In this document: positions 58,166 through 64,000 of the stretch, in pieces | Numbering within the stretch: position 1 is the first letter of the stretch | Layout of the letters: each line of letters begins with the position of its first letter | NCBI GenBank assembly: GCA_017644005.1 | Contig: JAEPMJ010000001.1 | Span: forward strand, 1,302,001-1,366,000 | Direction: 5' to 3' | Origin: Rhizobiaceae bacterium | GTDB lineage: Bacteria > Pseudomonadota > Alphaproteobacteria > Rhizobiales > Rhizobiaceae | Length of the DNA stretch: 64,000 nucleotides | Notes under the pieces: model-generated | The model's input: the letters and a program-made list of their open reading frames with translations, nothing else | What the model was told of the DNA's origin: nothing | Databases searched by the model: none | Translations under genes and position numbers: made by a program

Positions 58166-58402
58166 GTTCTGTGGCTAGCACAGCGTTCGCCAAATGCGAA
58201 TCGGAAAGTAAGGTCGTGAGCCACCACGGAGAAGGTGGCTGTCCGGTCGCCAAGAAAATCGGTTCCAGGAACCAATGCCGTGACGAGGAGTTCCCTGCAG
58301 CCAGATGCACTACTCATGGAGAGCGTGCTTTGCGGGAGACCGGGCTTGTTGTCGGCGATCCAGTCCAGGTGGTTCGCCAGCCGCCAGCAGCAGTGCGTCG
58401 GT
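58166..58402. other. Gap between holA and the GntR gene; possible synteny junction
   Basis: I see no convincing gene in these 237 bases. Short ORFs cross it without recognisable similarity. There is no tRNA and no clear inverted or direct repeat that would mark an integration site. It is the point at which conserved backbone gives way to the catabolic cluster. Confidence 0.45.
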
Positions 58403-59077
58403 TTATGGATCCGCGGATGCTGTCGGCTTCCTGCTGTCCTGCACGATATGCGATATGATGTTCACAGCTGTCTTCGCCACGTGTCTCTTCATTGCTTCAC
58501 TGGCGCCGTCACCATCGTTTTTCAGTATGCAGTCGACGACTTCCTGATGTTCCTCCCGCGATTGGGCGACACGGCCCTCCGAGAATAGGAACCGGGCGTG
58601 AAACATGGAAAGCCGATTTCGAACATCGAGGGTGATGTCCCGCAACGCATCGTTATGGCATGCGTCGTAGATAGCCCGGTGCAGGGCATGGTTGGCTTCT
58701 GCGTAGGCAGCCATGTCGTGGAGCCTGATTGCCTCCATCCCCCGCTGGTGAAGCATGCGGATATGTTCGCGCTGCACCGAGTCAGCGCGCAGGGCACAAT
58801 ATTTGGCGCAAAGGCCCTCCAGTTCCCCAGAGGCTTCATACAGGTTGCGGAGCGTCGCCATATCGATCGTTGCGACGGTAAATCCGCGACGCGGCTGATG
58901 CTCTATCAACCGCGTAGAGGCGAGCTCGCGCAGCGCGTCGCGAATAGGACTGCGTGAGACTTCGAAGCGGTTTGCAAGGGATTGCTCGTCCAGCCGGTCT
59001 CCCGGCAGAAGCTCACCTTTCAGAATTTCTTCCGAGAGGGTGTTGGCAATCTTTCGACTCAGAGTGCTGCTCGCCAT
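58403..59077 (-). CDS. GntR-family (FadR/FCD) transcriptional regulator
   Basis: This 224-aa regulator has an N-terminal winged helix (LSEEILKGELLPGDRLDEQSLANRFEVSRSPIRDALREL) and a C-terminal FCD ligand-binding domain (YEASGELEGLCAKYCALRA, EEHQEVVDCILKNDGDGASEAMKRHV). FCD proteins usually sense an organic acid and repress a divergent catabolic operon. Here the divergent neighbours are GST, hydrolase and transporter genes. GCGGAG before ATG 59077 sets the start; the ORF extends 51 codons further without support. Confidence 0.93.
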   Translation of the reverse strand: MASSTLSRKIANTLSEEILKGELLPGDRLDEQSLANRFEVSRSPIRDALRELASTRLIEHQPRRGFTVATIDMATLRNLYEASGELEGLCAKYCALRADSVQREHIRMLHQRGMEAIRLHDMAAYAEANHALHRAIYDACHNDALRDITLDVRNRLSMFHARFLFSEGRVAQSREEHQEVVDCILKNDGDGASEAMKRHVAKTAVNIISHIVQDSRKPTASADP

Positions 59078-59212
59078 GGGACTCCGCTTGTTCCAGGACC
59101 GATTGACTCGATCGCAATGTTGTATGTCGCAGACATTAGCAAGACGTCCCTTGCTTTTCCAGACATATCTGTCGACAGTGTACCTAGATTGTACGCAAAA
59201 AGGATAAATTGG

Positions 59213-59989
59213 TTGATCGTTCTTCATCATGCCTGGGATTCGCTTCAGTCATTCAAGGTCCGGATGTGCCTTGCCGAAATTGGAATTCCCTGGGGCGACC
59301 ATGCCCTGAACCTCACTGAGTTCGATCACCTCACTCCGGCATATTTGGCGCTCAATCCCGATGGCCTGGTACCTGCTCTAGAGACAGCCGAAGGAGTTCT
59401 GACAGAATCTTCCACGATAAACGCCTATCTGGACGAAGCGTTCAATTCCATGCGGCTGCAGCCGGACGATGCGTTTGCCCGCGCGCGCATGCGGTGGTGG
59501 TGTCAGCATGAAGACACAGTGGTTCACCCGGCGATAAGACCGCCGACCTTCAATCTCTACATCAAGCCAATTCTCGCCGGACTGTCACCGGAAGTCATGG
59601 AGCAGCGGATCTCCCGCCATCCGCACCCGGAACGCGCGGAGACGTACAGGGCTGCTGCGTCGGCGCCCGTGGATGATGCCGCAGTGATCGCAGCCTTTCG
59701 GAGCCTCGATCTGACAATGTCCCGCATCGACCTGGCGGTGGAACAACGGCGCTGGCTAGCAGCAGACACATTCTCGCTTGCGGATATCGCCATGGCGGCA
59801 ATGGTCGAGCGAATAGAAATGCTGGCGCTGGGGAGCTTGTGGGAAAGGCATCCCGATGCACGGGCCTGGTCGGAGCGGGTCGCCCGGCGGCCATCGTTCA
59901 AGCGAGCGCGGGAACCGAGAAGTGCCGAGAAGCCCTCACCTGTCGATCAGGAACTCGTTCGAAGGCTAATGGGCATGGCATTCGGATAG
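59213..59989 (+). CDS. Glutathione S-transferase family protein
   Basis: The 258-aa protein has a thioredoxin-like N-terminal domain (HAWDSLQSFKVRMCLAEIGIPW, NPDGLVPALETAEGVLTESSTINAYLDE) and a helical GST C-terminal domain ending WLAADTFSLADIAMAAMVERIEM. The ORF track opens at 58982 inside the divergent regulator, but TTG 59213 has AAGGAT eight bases upstream and gives a sensible GST start. It may open, isomerise or conjugate an intermediate using glutathione, in line with maleylacetoacetate isomerase or LigE-type enzymes, but the reaction is not identifiable. Confidence 0.85.
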   Translation: MIVLHHAWDSLQSFKVRMCLAEIGIPWGDHALNLTEFDHLTPAYLALNPDGLVPALETAEGVLTESSTINAYLDEAFNSMRLQPDDAFARARMRWWCQHEDTVVHPAIRPPTFNLYIKPILAGLSPEVMEQRISRHPHPERAETYRAAASAPVDDAAVIAAFRSLDLTMSRIDLAVEQRRWLAADTFSLADIAMAAMVERIEMLALGSLWERHPDARAWSERVARRPSFKRAREPRSAEKPSPVDQELVRRLMGMAFG

Positions 59990-60014
59990 GTCTCACATAC
60001 AAAGATTATCACTT

Positions 60015-60044
60015 GCATACAATTATTAGCTATTGTATGCATAC
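60015..60044. promoter_or_regulatory. Nested palindromes, candidate GntR operator
   Basis: GCATACAAT and ATTGTATGC form perfect 9-bp arms with an 8-bp spacer (60015-60040), overlapping a perfect 10-bp palindrome GTATGCATAC (60035-60044). They lie just before the hydrolase gene. A related half-site ATTGTACGC occurs at 59188-59196 between the GntR and GST genes. Such TTGTAYGC sites fit a FadR-type dimer. Confidence 0.65.
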
Positions 60045-60074
60045 GGAAATCGAGAATGAGTGAGGAGAAGTCAC

Positions 60075-60998
60075 ATGCCAGTCATCGCATTCGGCACATA
60101 CGCATCCGACGGCAGGGAATACCCAGCCGTTATCTGCAACGGAGCGATCTATGACGCCGAAGCGCTGCGGGACGCGGGAATCCACGTTCCCAATGGAGAC
60201 TGGTCTAATGGCCAGGCAGGCCTGTTCCTCGAGAATCTGTGCGCTGATCGAAGCGATTGGAGTGAGGTGGCCGACGCGATCCGCACAGCGGCAGCGACCG
60301 GTACCGTACGCACCGTTGCCGATACGGCGAAGCTCGCCGCGCCCTTCCGCCCGCGGCGAATCTTCTGTGCCGCATCGAACTTTGTCGATCACGCGGACGA
60401 AATGGGTACCGTGCTTGCAGCTAAGGCTGAGAGCAAGCCGTACATGTTCCTGAAGCTGGAAGACTGCGTCGTCGGTCCGGGTCAACCGGTGCTAATGCCT
60501 GAGGCGACCAGCCAGCTCGACTGGGAGGTTGAACTGGCCGCCGTTATCGGCAAGCCGGCGCGACACGTGTCCGTCGCCGAGGCGCTGAGCCATGTGGCGG
60601 CCTACACGGTAGTCAATGATGTGACGGCACGCGACATGAATGTGCGCAGCGACTATCCCTTCAAGTTCGACTGGTTCCAGGGCAAGTGCCACGACAGTTT
60701 TGCACCCTTCGGTCCCTGGCTGGTGCCCGCATCGCAGATACCTGATCCGCAGAAGGTCGGTCTCAGACTGTCAGTCAATGGCACGGTGATGCAGGAGGGC
60801 ACCGCCGAGGAGATGATCTGGAAGGTCAACGAACAGATTGCCTACCTGTCGACGATCCTGACGCTCAAACCCGGTGACGTGATAGCGACGGGGACGCCGA
60901 CCGGCGTCGGCATGGGGCGCGGCGTCTTTCTCAAGCGAGGAGATGTCATGACGGCGGCCATCGCCGAGGTCGGAGAAATCACCAATCCGGTTCAATAG
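60075..60998 (+). CDS. Fumarylacetoacetate hydrolase family protein
   Basis: This 307-aa enzyme belongs to the FAH superfamily, which includes fumarylpyruvate and fumarylacetoacetate hydrolases and 2-oxohept-3-enedioate hydratases. Metal-binding acids are seen in DWEVELAAVIGKPARH and VVNDVTARDMNVR, with FCAASNFVDHADEM and the C-terminal GDVIATGTPTGVGMGRG loop. GAGGAG precedes ATG 60075. The gene has its own upstream operator. A ring-fission product is the likely substrate class, but the exact reaction is open. Confidence 0.9.
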   Translation: MPVIAFGTYASDGREYPAVICNGAIYDAEALRDAGIHVPNGDWSNGQAGLFLENLCADRSDWSEVADAIRTAAATGTVRTVADTAKLAAPFRPRRIFCAASNFVDHADEMGTVLAAKAESKPYMFLKLEDCVVGPGQPVLMPEATSQLDWEVELAAVIGKPARHVSVAEALSHVAAYTVVNDVTARDMNVRSDYPFKFDWFQGKCHDSFAPFGPWLVPASQIPDPQKVGLRLSVNGTVMQEGTAEEMIWKVNEQIAYLSTILTLKPGDVIATGTPTGVGMGRGVFLKRGDVMTAAIAEVGEITNPVQ

Positions 60999-61031
60999 CC
61001 GGACTTGCACAGAAAACAAGGGAGGATGAGC

Positions 61032-62027
61032 ATGTACAATCACGGACGCAGGCCATGTGCAATGGCGGCTGCCGCTGCGCTGGCAATTCTTGCCGCAGGC
61101 CCAGCGAAGGCTGCCGAGGAGATCAGCTTCAATATGGCGTGGTTGCCGCAGGGCAGCGTCGCGGGACCGATCATTGCGGAGGCGAAGGGCTGGTTCGACG
61201 AAGCAGGACTGAACGTCAAGCTGTCTCGCGGTTACGGTGGTTCACGCACGGCCAACGAGGTCGACCAAGGGATGTTCACGGTCGGTTATGTCGATCCGAT
61301 CAATGTCGGCCTCAATCGCCAGAACGGCGGCAGCCTGCGCATGATCGGCGTCATAAACGGGGTTTGGCCGGCCGGCGTCTGCTACGTCAAGAAAGACGAT
61401 GACGATCTGAGGGGTATCGACGATCTCGTCGGTCTCAAGATGGGCGGAGGAGCAGCGTCCCCTGTGCACAACATCCTGCCGGCATGGCTCGAAATGAACG
61501 GCCGCAAGCGTGACGATATATCACTTCTGCGTCTTGAGCCGGCTGTTGTCGATGCCTCCCTTCTGGAAGGCAGAATCGACTTGGCCGAGTGCTGGCGTGC
61601 ATCCAATCGCGCAGTCCTCCAAAAGATCGCCCGCGAGAATGGCAAGGAAGTCGGCTGGATCGAATATTCCGATCATGGCCTAAATGCCTATGGCAGCGGC
61701 TTCGTTGCCACCGAGGCGTCCATAGCCGAGATACCGGAGGCGTTGGAGGCTTTCCTCCAGGCATCCTATCGGGGTTATGAGTTTGCAATGAAGGAGCCGG
61801 AGGCAGCGACCGACATCCTGCTCGCCGAGTATCCGAGTCTGGATCGGGAGATCACTCTGCAGCAAATCAGGGAGCTACCTTCCCTGCTTGCTCCTTCCGG
61901 CGAGATCGAGGCGACGTTCGACGTAGATCGCATCGGCGCCACCTACACGTTGATGACCGAGGCATTCGGTCTGGATCCTGAAGGGGTCAAGCCGGATCAA
62001 CTCTTCACCAACACGTTGGCCGAGTAA
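61032..62027 (+). CDS. ABC transporter substrate-binding protein (NitT/TauT, NMT1-like)
   Basis: This 331-aa periplasmic protein has a signal peptide (MAAAAALAILAAGPAKA, cleavage near AKA-AE) and an SsuA/THI5-like fold: FNMAWLPQGSVAGPIIAEAKGWFDEAGLNVKLSRGYGG. Relatives bind taurine, sulfonates, nitrate, pyrimidine precursors or aromatic acids. GGGAGG six bases before ATG 61032 favours this start over the two upstream Met codons. The permease and ATPase follow on the same strand. Confidence 0.92.
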   Translation: MYNHGRRPCAMAAAAALAILAAGPAKAAEEISFNMAWLPQGSVAGPIIAEAKGWFDEAGLNVKLSRGYGGSRTANEVDQGMFTVGYVDPINVGLNRQNGGSLRMIGVINGVWPAGVCYVKKDDDDLRGIDDLVGLKMGGGAASPVHNILPAWLEMNGRKRDDISLLRLEPAVVDASLLEGRIDLAECWRASNRAVLQKIARENGKEVGWIEYSDHGLNAYGSGFVATEASIAEIPEALEAFLQASYRGYEFAMKEPEAATDILLAEYPSLDREITLQQIRELPSLLAPSGEIEATFDVDRIGATYTLMTEAFGLDPEGVKPDQLFTNTLAE

Positions 62028-62085
62028 GGTAAGCGTCGGCCCGCATTCTCTCGCGGGCCGGCAGCTTTCAAGTCAGGAGATTGAC

Positions 62086-62613
62086 ATGGCTAAACCGCAG
62101 CCTCGCAAGATGGGTCATATCGTGCTGCACGTGCGCGATATCCGCAAGTCCTTCGAATTCTACACGGAGGTGGTCGGCCTGACGCTCTCGGACTGGATAG
62201 AAGACAAGCTGGTGTTCTTGCGTTGCGGCGCAGACCACCACGATCTGGCCCTGGTGCAGATCCCACCCGACGCTGAAAATCGCGAAGACCTCTATAGCGT
62301 CAATCGGCCCGGATTGGAGCATTTCGCGTATGAACTGGGCTCACTTGAAGAGATTGAGGCCGCAGCCCGCCATATCCAGTCGAAGGGTGTCAAGATCGAG
62401 CGCGGTATCGGAAAACACGGACCGGGTGAGAACCTGTTCCTCGTCTTCAAGGATCCCGACAACAACAATGTCGAGTTCTACGCCGACATGGTCCAGGTGA
62501 CCGAGAGGAACCCGTACAAACCAAGCGTTTGGAAGGATGACGTCACTGCATTCGACCAGTGGAAATTCGAGAAGTTCCTGGTCGAGCCGCCCAGGGGCTG
62601 GGGTGAGAACTGA
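62086..62613 (+). CDS. VOC-family protein, extradiol dioxygenase-like
   Basis: This 175-aa protein has two beta-alpha-beta-beta-beta repeats of the vicinal oxygen chelate fold. Candidate metal ligands are His in MGHIVLHVRDI, His in LEHFAYEL and Glu in NNNVEFYADM, the 2-His-1-carboxylate pattern of type I extradiol dioxygenases. However, the LVFKDPDNNNVEF stretch lacks the usual catalytic Tyr. It might be a ring-cleaving dioxygenase, glyoxalase-like isomerase or hydrolase. It sits between the binding-protein and permease genes. Confidence 0.85.
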   Translation: MAKPQPRKMGHIVLHVRDIRKSFEFYTEVVGLTLSDWIEDKLVFLRCGADHHDLALVQIPPDAENREDLYSVNRPGLEHFAYELGSLEEIEAAARHIQSKGVKIERGIGKHGPGENLFLVFKDPDNNNVEFYADMVQVTERNPYKPSVWKDDVTAFDQWKFEKFLVEPPRGWGEN

Positions 62614-62642
62614 ATGCAGGATCTCTTGAAGGAAATTTTCGC

Positions 62643-63395
62643 ATGAGCGAATTGTTCTCAAGGCTGCGGTTCCCAGAGATTGTGTTCTTCGGACTCATTG
62701 CGCTGTGCTGGGAAATGGCGTCGGAGTGGTTTGGCATACGACCTTACCTGTTGCCTCCGCTGTCGTCGGTTCTGGCGGCGTTGTGGAACAATGCGGGCGA
62801 TCTCTACCGCCACAGCATTGTGACTCTGAACGAAGTCGTCGTCGGTTATCTCTGGGCAGTCGCGGGTGGGCTGGCACTCGGTCTGATAATACACGCGGTG
62901 CCGATTGCGCGCCGCACCATCTATCCGCTCATAGTCCTGTTTCAGGGTCTGCCAAAGGTAGCGCTCGCGCCACTTATGGTGATCTGGTTCGGCTACGGGC
63001 TGACGTCCAAGGTGCTGATGGCGTTCCTCTTCGCCTTTTTTCCCGTTGTCATCGGGATGCTGGGCGGGCTGGAGAGCGTGCCATCGCAACTGCGCGAACA
63101 CTTTGATGCGATCGGCGCCTCGCGCTGGACACGCTTCTGGCGGCTTCAGATGCCGGCCGCGCTGCCATCGATCGTCGACGCCTGCAAGACGGCAATGCCG
63201 CTCGCGGTGATCGGTGCCATTGTCGGAGAGTTTGTCGGTGCAGAAGGCGGGCTGGGTTACGTCATCCTTTCCGCCAACGCTTCAGCTCGGTCCGACCTCT
63301 TGTTTGCCGCTCTGGTGGTGATCTCGATCCTGTCGACGCTCCTCTACCTGGTGGTCGAGCTTCTGGGGCGCAAGGTCTGGTGGCGCGGCGTCTAG
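62643..63395 (+). CDS. ABC transporter permease (NitT/TauT type)
   Basis: This 250-aa inner-membrane protein has about six helices and the binding-protein-dependent transport EAA loop (FDAIGASRWTRFWRLQMPAALPSIVDACKTAMPLAVIGAIVGEFVG). It should pair with the substrate-binding protein at 61.0 kb and the ATPase at 63.8 kb, forming a homodimeric pore. It begins 29 bases after the first VOC gene. Confidence 0.93.
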   Translation: MSELFSRLRFPEIVFFGLIALCWEMASEWFGIRPYLLPPLSSVLAALWNNAGDLYRHSIVTLNEVVVGYLWAVAGGLALGLIIHAVPIARRTIYPLIVLFQGLPKVALAPLMVIWFGYGLTSKVLMAFLFAFFPVVIGMLGGLESVPSQLREHFDAIGASRWTRFWRLQMPAALPSIVDACKTAMPLAVIGAIVGEFVGAEGGLGYVILSANASARSDLLFAALVVISILSTLLYLVVELLGRKVWWRGV

Positions 63396-63453
63396 GTCGC
63401 GCACCACTCACAAAGCAGTCACGACTTTCACAAGAAGCCAAAGGAGAACTTCA

Positions 63454-63849
63454 ATGGCAAAACTACGTCACGTCGCCATCCAAGTTAAGGAGCACGCCAA
63501 GGCCGCTCAATTCTATGTGGACGCACTCGGCATGGAGATCGTCGGTCAGACAGACTCGCCGCTCGCCTCCGGTACCTATGTTTCGGATGGCACTGTCACG
63601 CTTGCGCTGCTGGAATATAAAGCGGACGAGTGGGCAGGCCGAGACAAGGACGATATCGCGATTAACCATATCGGTTTCTGGGTCGATGACCTCGACGAAC
63701 AGAGCGACCTGATCAAGAAGAATGGCGGCACCTTTTTCAAGGAACTACCGCTGTCGAAGGACTCACTCTACTACGAGATGAAGTTCCGCGATCCGAACGG
63801 CATCATTTTCGATGTCTCTCACAATGGCTGGGTCGGAGCATCAAAGTGA
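63454..63849 (+). CDS. VOC-family protein, second copy type
   Basis: This 131-aa protein is a shorter VOC member, starting LRHVAIQVKEHAKAAQFYVDALGMEIVG with a second His in INHIGFWVDDLD. The usual third ligand is Asp rather than Glu in GIIFDVSHNGW, which may alter metal binding. It is not closely similar to the other VOC protein here. AAAGGAGA precedes the ATG. Its stop overlaps the start of the ATPase gene as GTGA. Confidence 0.85.
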   Translation: MAKLRHVAIQVKEHAKAAQFYVDALGMEIVGQTDSPLASGTYVSDGTVTLALLEYKADEWAGRDKDDIAINHIGFWVDDLDEQSDLIKKNGGTFFKELPLSKDSLYYEMKFRDPNGIIFDVSHNGWVGASK

Positions 63850-64000
63850 CAAGCCAAGCCAATCCGGCGGATGCGAAAGCAGCCGCCGGGGCCATCAGCA
63901 TTCGCGGCCTGTCCAAGACGTTCGGTGCGCTGAAGGTCCTCGATAAGGTGGACTGCACCATAGGAGAAGCCGAGTTCGTCTCGATCCTCGGTCCGAGTGG
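63846..64000 (+). CDS. ABC transporter ATP-binding protein, 3'-truncated by window
   Basis: This gene is not in the ORF track. A GTG start at 63846 overlaps the VOC stop and opens a frame reading ...AISIRGLSKTFGALKVLDKVDCTIGEAEFVSILGPSG, ending at the window edge exactly inside Walker A (GPSGxGKST). About 51 codons are visible. It is the expected ATPase of the neighbouring NitT/TauT-type importer. Confidence 0.9.
   Translation, partial: MTSQANPADAKAAAGAISIRGLSKTFGALKVLDKVDCTIGEAEFVSILGPS

Follow-up and report, generated by a model that had tools for sequence, protein, structure and literature searches.

At the end of a 64,000-nucleotide stretch of the Rhizobiaceae bacterium contig JAEPMJ010000001.1 (assembly GCA_017644005.1, positions 1,302,001 to 1,366,000; called the window below, with positions counted from its first nucleotide) lies a run of genes for an ABC importer and putative catabolic enzymes, which we call the module. 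An earlier note on this DNA had described eight genes with short gaps between them and VOC genes alternating with transporter genes, and both the coordinates and the families agreed with that description. The gene for an FCD-family GntR regulator lies on the minus strand at 58403 to 59077 (PF07729, 84.7 bits; PF00392, 65 bits); its open reading frame (ORF) spans 58403 to 59230, with a likely start at 59077 and a possible upstream ATG at 59230. Divergently from it, on the plus strand, run genes for a divergent, accessory glutathione S-transferase (GST; 59213 to 59989; PF13417/PF00043), a FAH-superfamily hydrolase/decarboxylase resembling FAHD1, HpaG and KDR-hydrolase (60075 to 60998; PF01557, 240 bits; PDB relatives), an NMT1/SsuA-like periplasmic substrate-binding protein (SBP; 61026 to 62027; PF09084, 100.8 bits), the single-domain extradiol-dioxygenase-like protein VOC1 (62086 to 62613; PF00903, 81 bits), a TauC/SsuC-like ABC permease (62643 to 63395; PF00528, 106.8 bits), the methylmalonyl-CoA-epimerase-like protein VOC2 (63454 to 63849; PF00903, 60.5 bits), and the ABC ATPase (63846 to 64634, of which 63846 to 64000 lie in the window). 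Refinement of the likely starts placed that of GST near 59213, that of FAH at 60075 and that of SBP at 61026 to 61032. From FAH to the ATPase the intergenic gaps are about 27 to 58 bp, and the VOC2 and ATPase genes overlap by 4 bp. When the sequence was extended past position 64000, as the earlier note had proposed, ORFs and family searches showed that the unit continues for 3.2 kb through the rest of the ATPase, a DHDPS-fold (DapA-fold) lyase (64659 to 65567), a RutE-like reductase of the malonic semialdehyde reductase type with a nitroreductase fold (65564 to 66190) and a MetX-like alpha/beta hydrolase (about 66170 to 67232). Core genome then resumes with genes for a YbaK-like editing protein, thioredoxin, a Lon-type protein, a Y-family polymerase and a DnaE2-like protein. 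The absence of a ring-activating oxygenase, which had been noted for the window, extended to the entire island that carries these genes: neither a ring-hydroxylating nor a flavin monooxygenase was found across it, including the part past the window, and it contains no aldehyde dehydrogenase.

The limits of this island were set by blastn against an empty site in a genome of the same genus (G001), where holA and tRNA-Gly(GCC) adjoin with 48 bp between them and where the window's genome has 9.37 kb. Homology ended at L005:1208 and restarted at L005:10583 (adding 57000 to L005 positions gives window numbering), so that the acquired island occupies 58209 to 64000 of the window and continues to about 67582 (L005:1209-10582), with holA on one side and tRNA-Gly(GCC), at 67604 to 67678, on the other. 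Searches of the other five genomes of the genus did not recover the module. The stretch from GntR to the hydrolase (8.8 kb) recurs in Nitratireductor pacificus and N. soli at 82 to 84% DNA identity, with flanks that are not homologous. VOC1 shares 96 to 97% identity with its counterparts in N. pacificus, N. soli and Stappia, but HolA, encoded next to the island, only 56, 56 and 44%, respectively, and we concluded from this difference that the 9-kb block was acquired horizontally. No integrase was seen at the island, and no direct or inverted repeats were found within either junction region, each searched on its own rather than one end against the other. Just past the last island gene, 13 consecutive G at 67278 to 67290 (L005:10278-10290) fall in an unmatched segment of about 350 bp in front of the tRNA and are possibly junction debris; an insertion-sequence origin of that segment was rejected, as there was neither a plasmid match nor a repeat in the junction regions.

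Homologous neighbourhoods were compared in 60 loci, comprising 54 from GTDB genomes, 5 on plasmids and the window's own. VOC1 adjoined the permease gene in 53 of them, SBP adjoined VOC1 in 52 and FAH adjoined SBP in 49. The order FAH-SBP-VOC1-permease was kept in most of the loci, which belong to Proteobacteria, Actinomycetota and Acidobacteriota, and for this reason the placement of a VOC gene within transporter genes must be old; the arrangement of the gene run is not due to chance. The earlier note had held that scattered neighbourhoods would tell against a single uptake and catabolism unit; they proved to be conserved, and this adjacency, the island boundaries and a shared promoter motif (described below) make it almost certain that the module is one unit, co-inherited and probably co-regulated. 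Around the common core three layouts were seen. Type A (the window's locus, Actinomycetota, Alcaligenaceae and Variovorax) adds VOC2, the DHDPS-fold enzyme and usually RutE, with an arylformamidase-like hydrolase in some. Type B (Herbaspirillum, Massilia and Roseateles) adds a 2-hydroxyacid dehydrogenase, a hydrolase resembling esterases, a further DHDPS-fold enzyme, RidA, RutE and, in many cases, TauE. Type C (Acidobacteriota and some Alphaproteobacteria) adds an aspartate-dehydrogenase-like gene and another hydrolase; in type C loci L030, L033, L055, L057 and L032 the aspartate-dehydrogenase-like gene lies near VOC1 and is about 51 to 72% identical to the L033 copy. A TauE/SafE-family exporter gene stands beside the module in 12 of the 60 loci, adjoining the reductase gene in type B (for example L031:10078-10869), and may indicate that an anion, for instance sulfite or an organic acid, is exported. 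Several Burkholderiales loci (L072:7454-9391, L042, L070 and L071) also carry near the module a gene for a large LVIVD-repeat protein, 77 to 88% identical to the copy in Cupriavidus metallidurans CH34.

Two promoters of the module carry candidate operators for the GntR regulator. A half-site, TTGTACGCA, precedes GST at 59189 to 59197 on the plus strand and is kept in all four close relatives, and an inverted repeat, TGCATACAAT-N8-ATTGTATGCA, at 60014 to 60041 is a candidate operator of the FAH operon. The motif TTGTAYGCA occurs at three sites in the 64 kb, all in these two promoters, where 0.37 were expected and none of 100 shuffles reached three, a count that is partly circular in that the motif was derived from these same sites; it is largely conserved in close relatives.

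The importer had been assigned to the NitT/TauT group, and the families of its NMT1-type SBP, BPD_transp_1 permease and NitT/TauT-like ATPase, which are those of SsuABC and TauABC, support that assignment. Unlike those systems, the module has VOC genes interleaved with the transporter genes, and its scores (SsuA_fam, 58.6 bits; TauC, 100 bits; SaoP, 102 bits) all fall under the curated cut-offs of named and sulfonate members. The earlier note had suggested an aromatic or sulfonated substrate; with these scores a sulfonated compound is possible but a weak candidate. In our preferred reading the importer would carry a small aromatic acid, of which one of the ortho-aminophenol or catechol type is the likeliest.

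The earlier note had pointed to the ring-cleaving dioxygenases of the VOC family, a role that suits VOC1 better than VOC2. VOC1 is a single VOC domain (predicted model with a pLDDT of 88) whose residues we mapped by alignment to homoprotocatechuate 2,3-dioxygenase (HPCD). The metal-binding 2-His-1-Glu triad, H11, H79 and E130, is invariant in 35 loci, with E130 aligned to the HPCD-type Glu. Also invariant in these loci are the counterparts of HPCD His200 and His248, in the motifs HHDLAL (H51/H52) and GKHGPG (H111); H111 was matched to His248 by alignment, and H51/H52 to His200 only by the HHDLAL/HDTAL motif. Structure searches gave only general VOC/extradiol matches, the best being 3b59, and the HpaD model scored 74.7 bits against a cut-off of 321. 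On balance, these residues favor a ring-cleaving dioxygenase. VOC2 has invariant H6, H72, E108 and D120 and a predicted model with a pLDDT of 92, for which the top Foldseek matches were 3oa4 (BH1468) and methylmalonyl-CoA epimerase structures; since its fold is closest to these, VOC2 is more likely to be an isomerase than a second dioxygenase.

The H-x-x-E and metal residues seen in enzymes of the acylpyruvase type are retained in the FAH enzyme: H111-x-x-E114, E156, E158, D187 and K209, whose roles we take to be those in FAHD1, are invariant in 21 loci. Its score with HpaG-C was 170.7 bits against a cut-off of 276. For the DapA-fold enzyme, with residue roles presumed from E. coli DapA, the Schiff-base Lys, Tyr133 and the carboxylate-binding Arg138 position are kept; because Ser-Gln replaces Thr44-Thr45 and Phe replaces Tyr107 in all 12 relatives, which disrupts the DapA catalytic triad Thr44/Tyr107/Tyr133, it is probably not DapA, even though it scored 220 bits with the dapA model (cut-off 206); with HpaI-NOT-DapA it scored 187 bits (cut-off 397). 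The genome has several further DapA-fold paralogues, the nearest 33% identical, and these together with the active-site residues led us to reject a role for the gene in ordinary lysine biosynthesis. The kept Arg138 would suit a carboxylate-bearing aldehyde. The RutE-like reductase scored 246.5 bits with NF003768, above the curated cut-off of 152.

The genomes that carry the module tend also to carry 3-hydroxyanthranilate dioxygenase (3-HAO): of 19 such genomes or records, 15 had the gene (15 of 18 without the window's own). In a set of 13 module genomes that leaves out the window's genome and five picked as kynurenine-linked, 10 had 3-HAO, compared with 27 of 299 genomes of the window's family and 4 of 146 of another family (Fisher p about 4e-8 for the comparison with the 299, a value that ignores relatedness and differing taxa). 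The module is rare in these family samples (3/299 and 2/146), and all four carriers other than the window's own had 3-HAO; N. pacificus, one of the four, was known beforehand to have the module, and another is the centre of its sample. The module and 3-HAO also share a locus in several instances. In two Acidobacteriota the module continues into genes for an aspartate-dehydrogenase-like protein, aldehyde dehydrogenase, RidA (in L033), 3-HAO, an ACMSD-family amidohydrolase and kynureninase; 3-hydroxyanthranilate genes surround it in C. metallidurans CH34 and Burkholderia arboris; its neighbour in Roseateles and Herbaspirillum is kynureninase; and about 1.4 kb separate 3-HAO from GntR in N. pacificus. 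Some relatives of the module include a kynurenine-formamidase-like hydrolase. Beside the module in N. pacificus (L007:1-6132) is a second possible operon, which encodes a hydrolase resembling kynurenine formamidase, an aldehyde dehydrogenase, a DHDPS-fold enzyme distinct from that of the module (it shares 75% identity with one adjoining 3-HAO in L032), 3-HAO itself and a binding protein of the Liv/Urt type; no ACMS decarboxylase was recognised among these genes, which may constitute a variant 3-hydroxyanthranilate route. Locus L055 has the aspartate-dehydrogenase-like gene and lacks 3-HAO. The module resembles the kynurenine/3-hydroxyanthranilate (nba/onb) systems in the company that it keeps, in several phyla, and differs from them in that none of its enzymes is an Nba enzyme and the window's genome has no 3-HAO.

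The module is a catabolic operon that resembles meta-cleavage operons and includes an importer of its own. Our preferred reading, to which we give a probability of about 0.45, is that it is an acquired operon, controlled by GntR through the candidate operators, for import and extradiol cleavage of an acid of the ortho-aminophenol or catechol type that belongs near the tryptophan-kynurenine/3-hydroxyanthranilate family. We infer the order of steps, the end products and the class of substrate as follows. The NitT/TauT-type importer would take up a small acidic aromatic, whose ring would be opened by VOC1 in an extradiol manner; VOC2, and here perhaps also GST, would isomerise the product; the FAH enzyme would hydrolyse, hydrate or decarboxylate it; the DapA-fold enzyme would split it to pyruvate and a carboxylated aldehyde, malonic semialdehyde; the RutE-type enzyme would reduce the latter to 3-hydroxypropionate; and the alpha/beta hydrolase could remove an acyl or formyl group. 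Because the island has no aldehyde dehydrogenase, ring cleavage should yield an acid directly, or else another enzyme acts. One consistent chemistry, which would require no such dehydrogenase, would proceed from cleavage to a 2-hydroxymuconate/4-oxalocrotonate-like diacid, hydration to 4-hydroxy-2-oxoadipate, and formation of pyruvate and malonic semialdehyde. These end products we propose tentatively, and an aminophenol- or kynurenine-related substrate is somewhat doubtful. Homoprotocatechuate (Hpa) meta-cleavage similarly uses an extradiol dioxygenase of the VOC family (HpaD), a FAH enzyme (HpaG) and a lyase giving pyruvate and a carboxylated aldehyde, the last a reaction that we presume for the module. 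In contrast to Hpa, the module lacks a semialdehyde dehydrogenase, a monooxygenase and an HpcH-type aldolase, has a single-domain dioxygenase without the active-site Tyr, and is interleaved with an ABC importer; none of its proteins qualified as an orthologue of HpaD, HpaE, HpaG, HpaH or HpaI. Aminophenol pathways already described have a RidA-type deaminase acting after the ring-cleaving dioxygenase (PMC4539516, PMC6449761), a pairing that by analogy fits the type B loci.

Several observations weigh against this reading. Residue V120 of VOC1 is invariant where HPCD has Tyr257, the active-site Tyr of type I extradiol enzymes, and the closest PDB relative, 3b59, has Tyr there; because this position is Val in every VOC1, its reaction may differ from catechol cleavage. 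The L-DOPA 2,3-dioxygenases such as LmbB1 share the one-domain type I extradiol architecture of VOC1 but are biosynthetic and keep the Tyr (PMC12311729), whereas VOC1 has the invariant Val and lies in a transporter operon. The RutE assignment depends on a single broad model, and the DHDPS and FAH superfamilies are catalytically diverse. The 13 module genomes are phylogenetically non-independent, and the variant loci with an aspartate-dehydrogenase-like gene mostly lack the DHDPS/RutE pair. In addition, 3-HAO was not found in the window's genome, which is 93% complete, or in three further module genomes, including two Variovorax; the module can therefore exist without 3-HAO, and the kynurenine link is not obligatory.

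Among the other explanations, the one that survives best, although it is unlikely, is an N-heteroaromatic route in which VOC1 would open a hydroxylated pyridine- or pyrimidine-like ring, a hydrolase would remove a formyl or amide group, and 3-aminoacrylate would give malonic semialdehyde for reduction by the RutE-like enzyme, as in the Rut and Kpi pathways. The malonic semialdehyde reductase, the alpha/beta hydrolase and the RidA of type B loci do parallel RutE, RutD and RutC, the SBP is related to the pyrimidine-binding protein 3ix1, and the Arthrobacter 4-hydroxypyridine pathway combines a dioxygenase with the alpha/beta hydrolase KpiB and the FAH protein KpiD (PMC7356986). However, the module has no RutA, RutB, RutF or RutG and has a ring dioxygenase in place of the luciferase-like monooxygenase, the window's own locus lacks RidA and the formamidase-like hydrolase, and the DapA-fold enzyme is left unexplained. 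Known pyridinediol dioxygenases, moreover, belong to the LigB or amidohydrolase families rather than VOC; a link to mimosine/3,4-dihydroxypyridine through PydA and KpiC was rejected on the same ground, as those dioxygenases are not homologous to VOC1.

Quite improbable is catabolism of a sugar or keto acid without ring cleavage, in which FAH would hydrolyse a 2,4-diketo-3-deoxy acid, the DapA-fold enzyme would be an aldolase of the KDG type and the VOC proteins would serve as epimerases. The best NCBIfam match of FAH, 2,4-didehydro-3-deoxy-L-rhamnonate hydrolase (198 bits, under the cut-off of 500), the 2-hydroxyacid dehydrogenase in 28 of the 60 loci and the epimerase-like fold of VOC2 agree with such a role, but it conflicts with the full extradiol histidine set of VOC1 and does not account for the association with 3-HAO; NitT/TauT importers, too, are not typical carriers of sugar acids. 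The earlier note had suggested a possibly glutathione-dependent route, with the gentisate and homogentisate routes as its analogy; in a route of that type GST would be a maleylpyruvate isomerase and FAH a fumarylpyruvate hydrolase. GST does adjoin FAH in 6 loci and has weak matches to maleylacetoacetate and maleylpyruvate isomerases, but it is missing from 54 of the 60 loci, it scored 60 bits with the maleylacetoacetate isomerase MaiA (cut-off 171), among solved structures it is nearest to a plant GST, LigF and assorted GSTs, and the route would leave the DapA-fold and RutE-like genes without a function; its N-terminus, SLQSFKVR, also departs from the zeta-class motif. GST is thus not recognisable as a maleylpyruvate isomerase, and we consider this route very unlikely. 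Least probable of all is a 3-sulfocatechol-like substrate whose cleavage would free sulfite and 2-hydroxymuconate, to which the SsuA/TauC-like importer and the neighbouring TauE/SafE genes might point, since NitT/TauT importers transport many anions, this one scored under the sulfonate cut-offs, and the window's island has no TauE, sulfite oxidase or sulfonate-specific gene.

No published description of the gene set was found in the open-access literature; subscription papers lay outside the search, so a description there is possible. The part of a paper on aromatic catabolism in CH34 that lists the 3-hydroxyanthranilate genes makes no mention of the neighbouring module. The boldest form of the preferred reading, a mobile and so far undescribed pathway of ring cleavage that would operate alongside the kynurenine/3-hydroxyanthranilate route in three or more phyla, with a Tyr-less single-domain VOC enzyme acting on an imported amino-aromatic to give pyruvate and malonic semialdehyde, is speculative and rather unlikely to be correct in every part. 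A gene order that several phyla have kept so well, and that was transferred whole, nevertheless marks a real pathway, one whose substrate has apparently not been named, and the link to 3-HAO narrows the candidates to a short list from tryptophan or N-aromatic turnover. A single-domain extradiol enzyme that lacks the Tyr, if that is what VOC1 is, would probe which residues ring cleavage requires.

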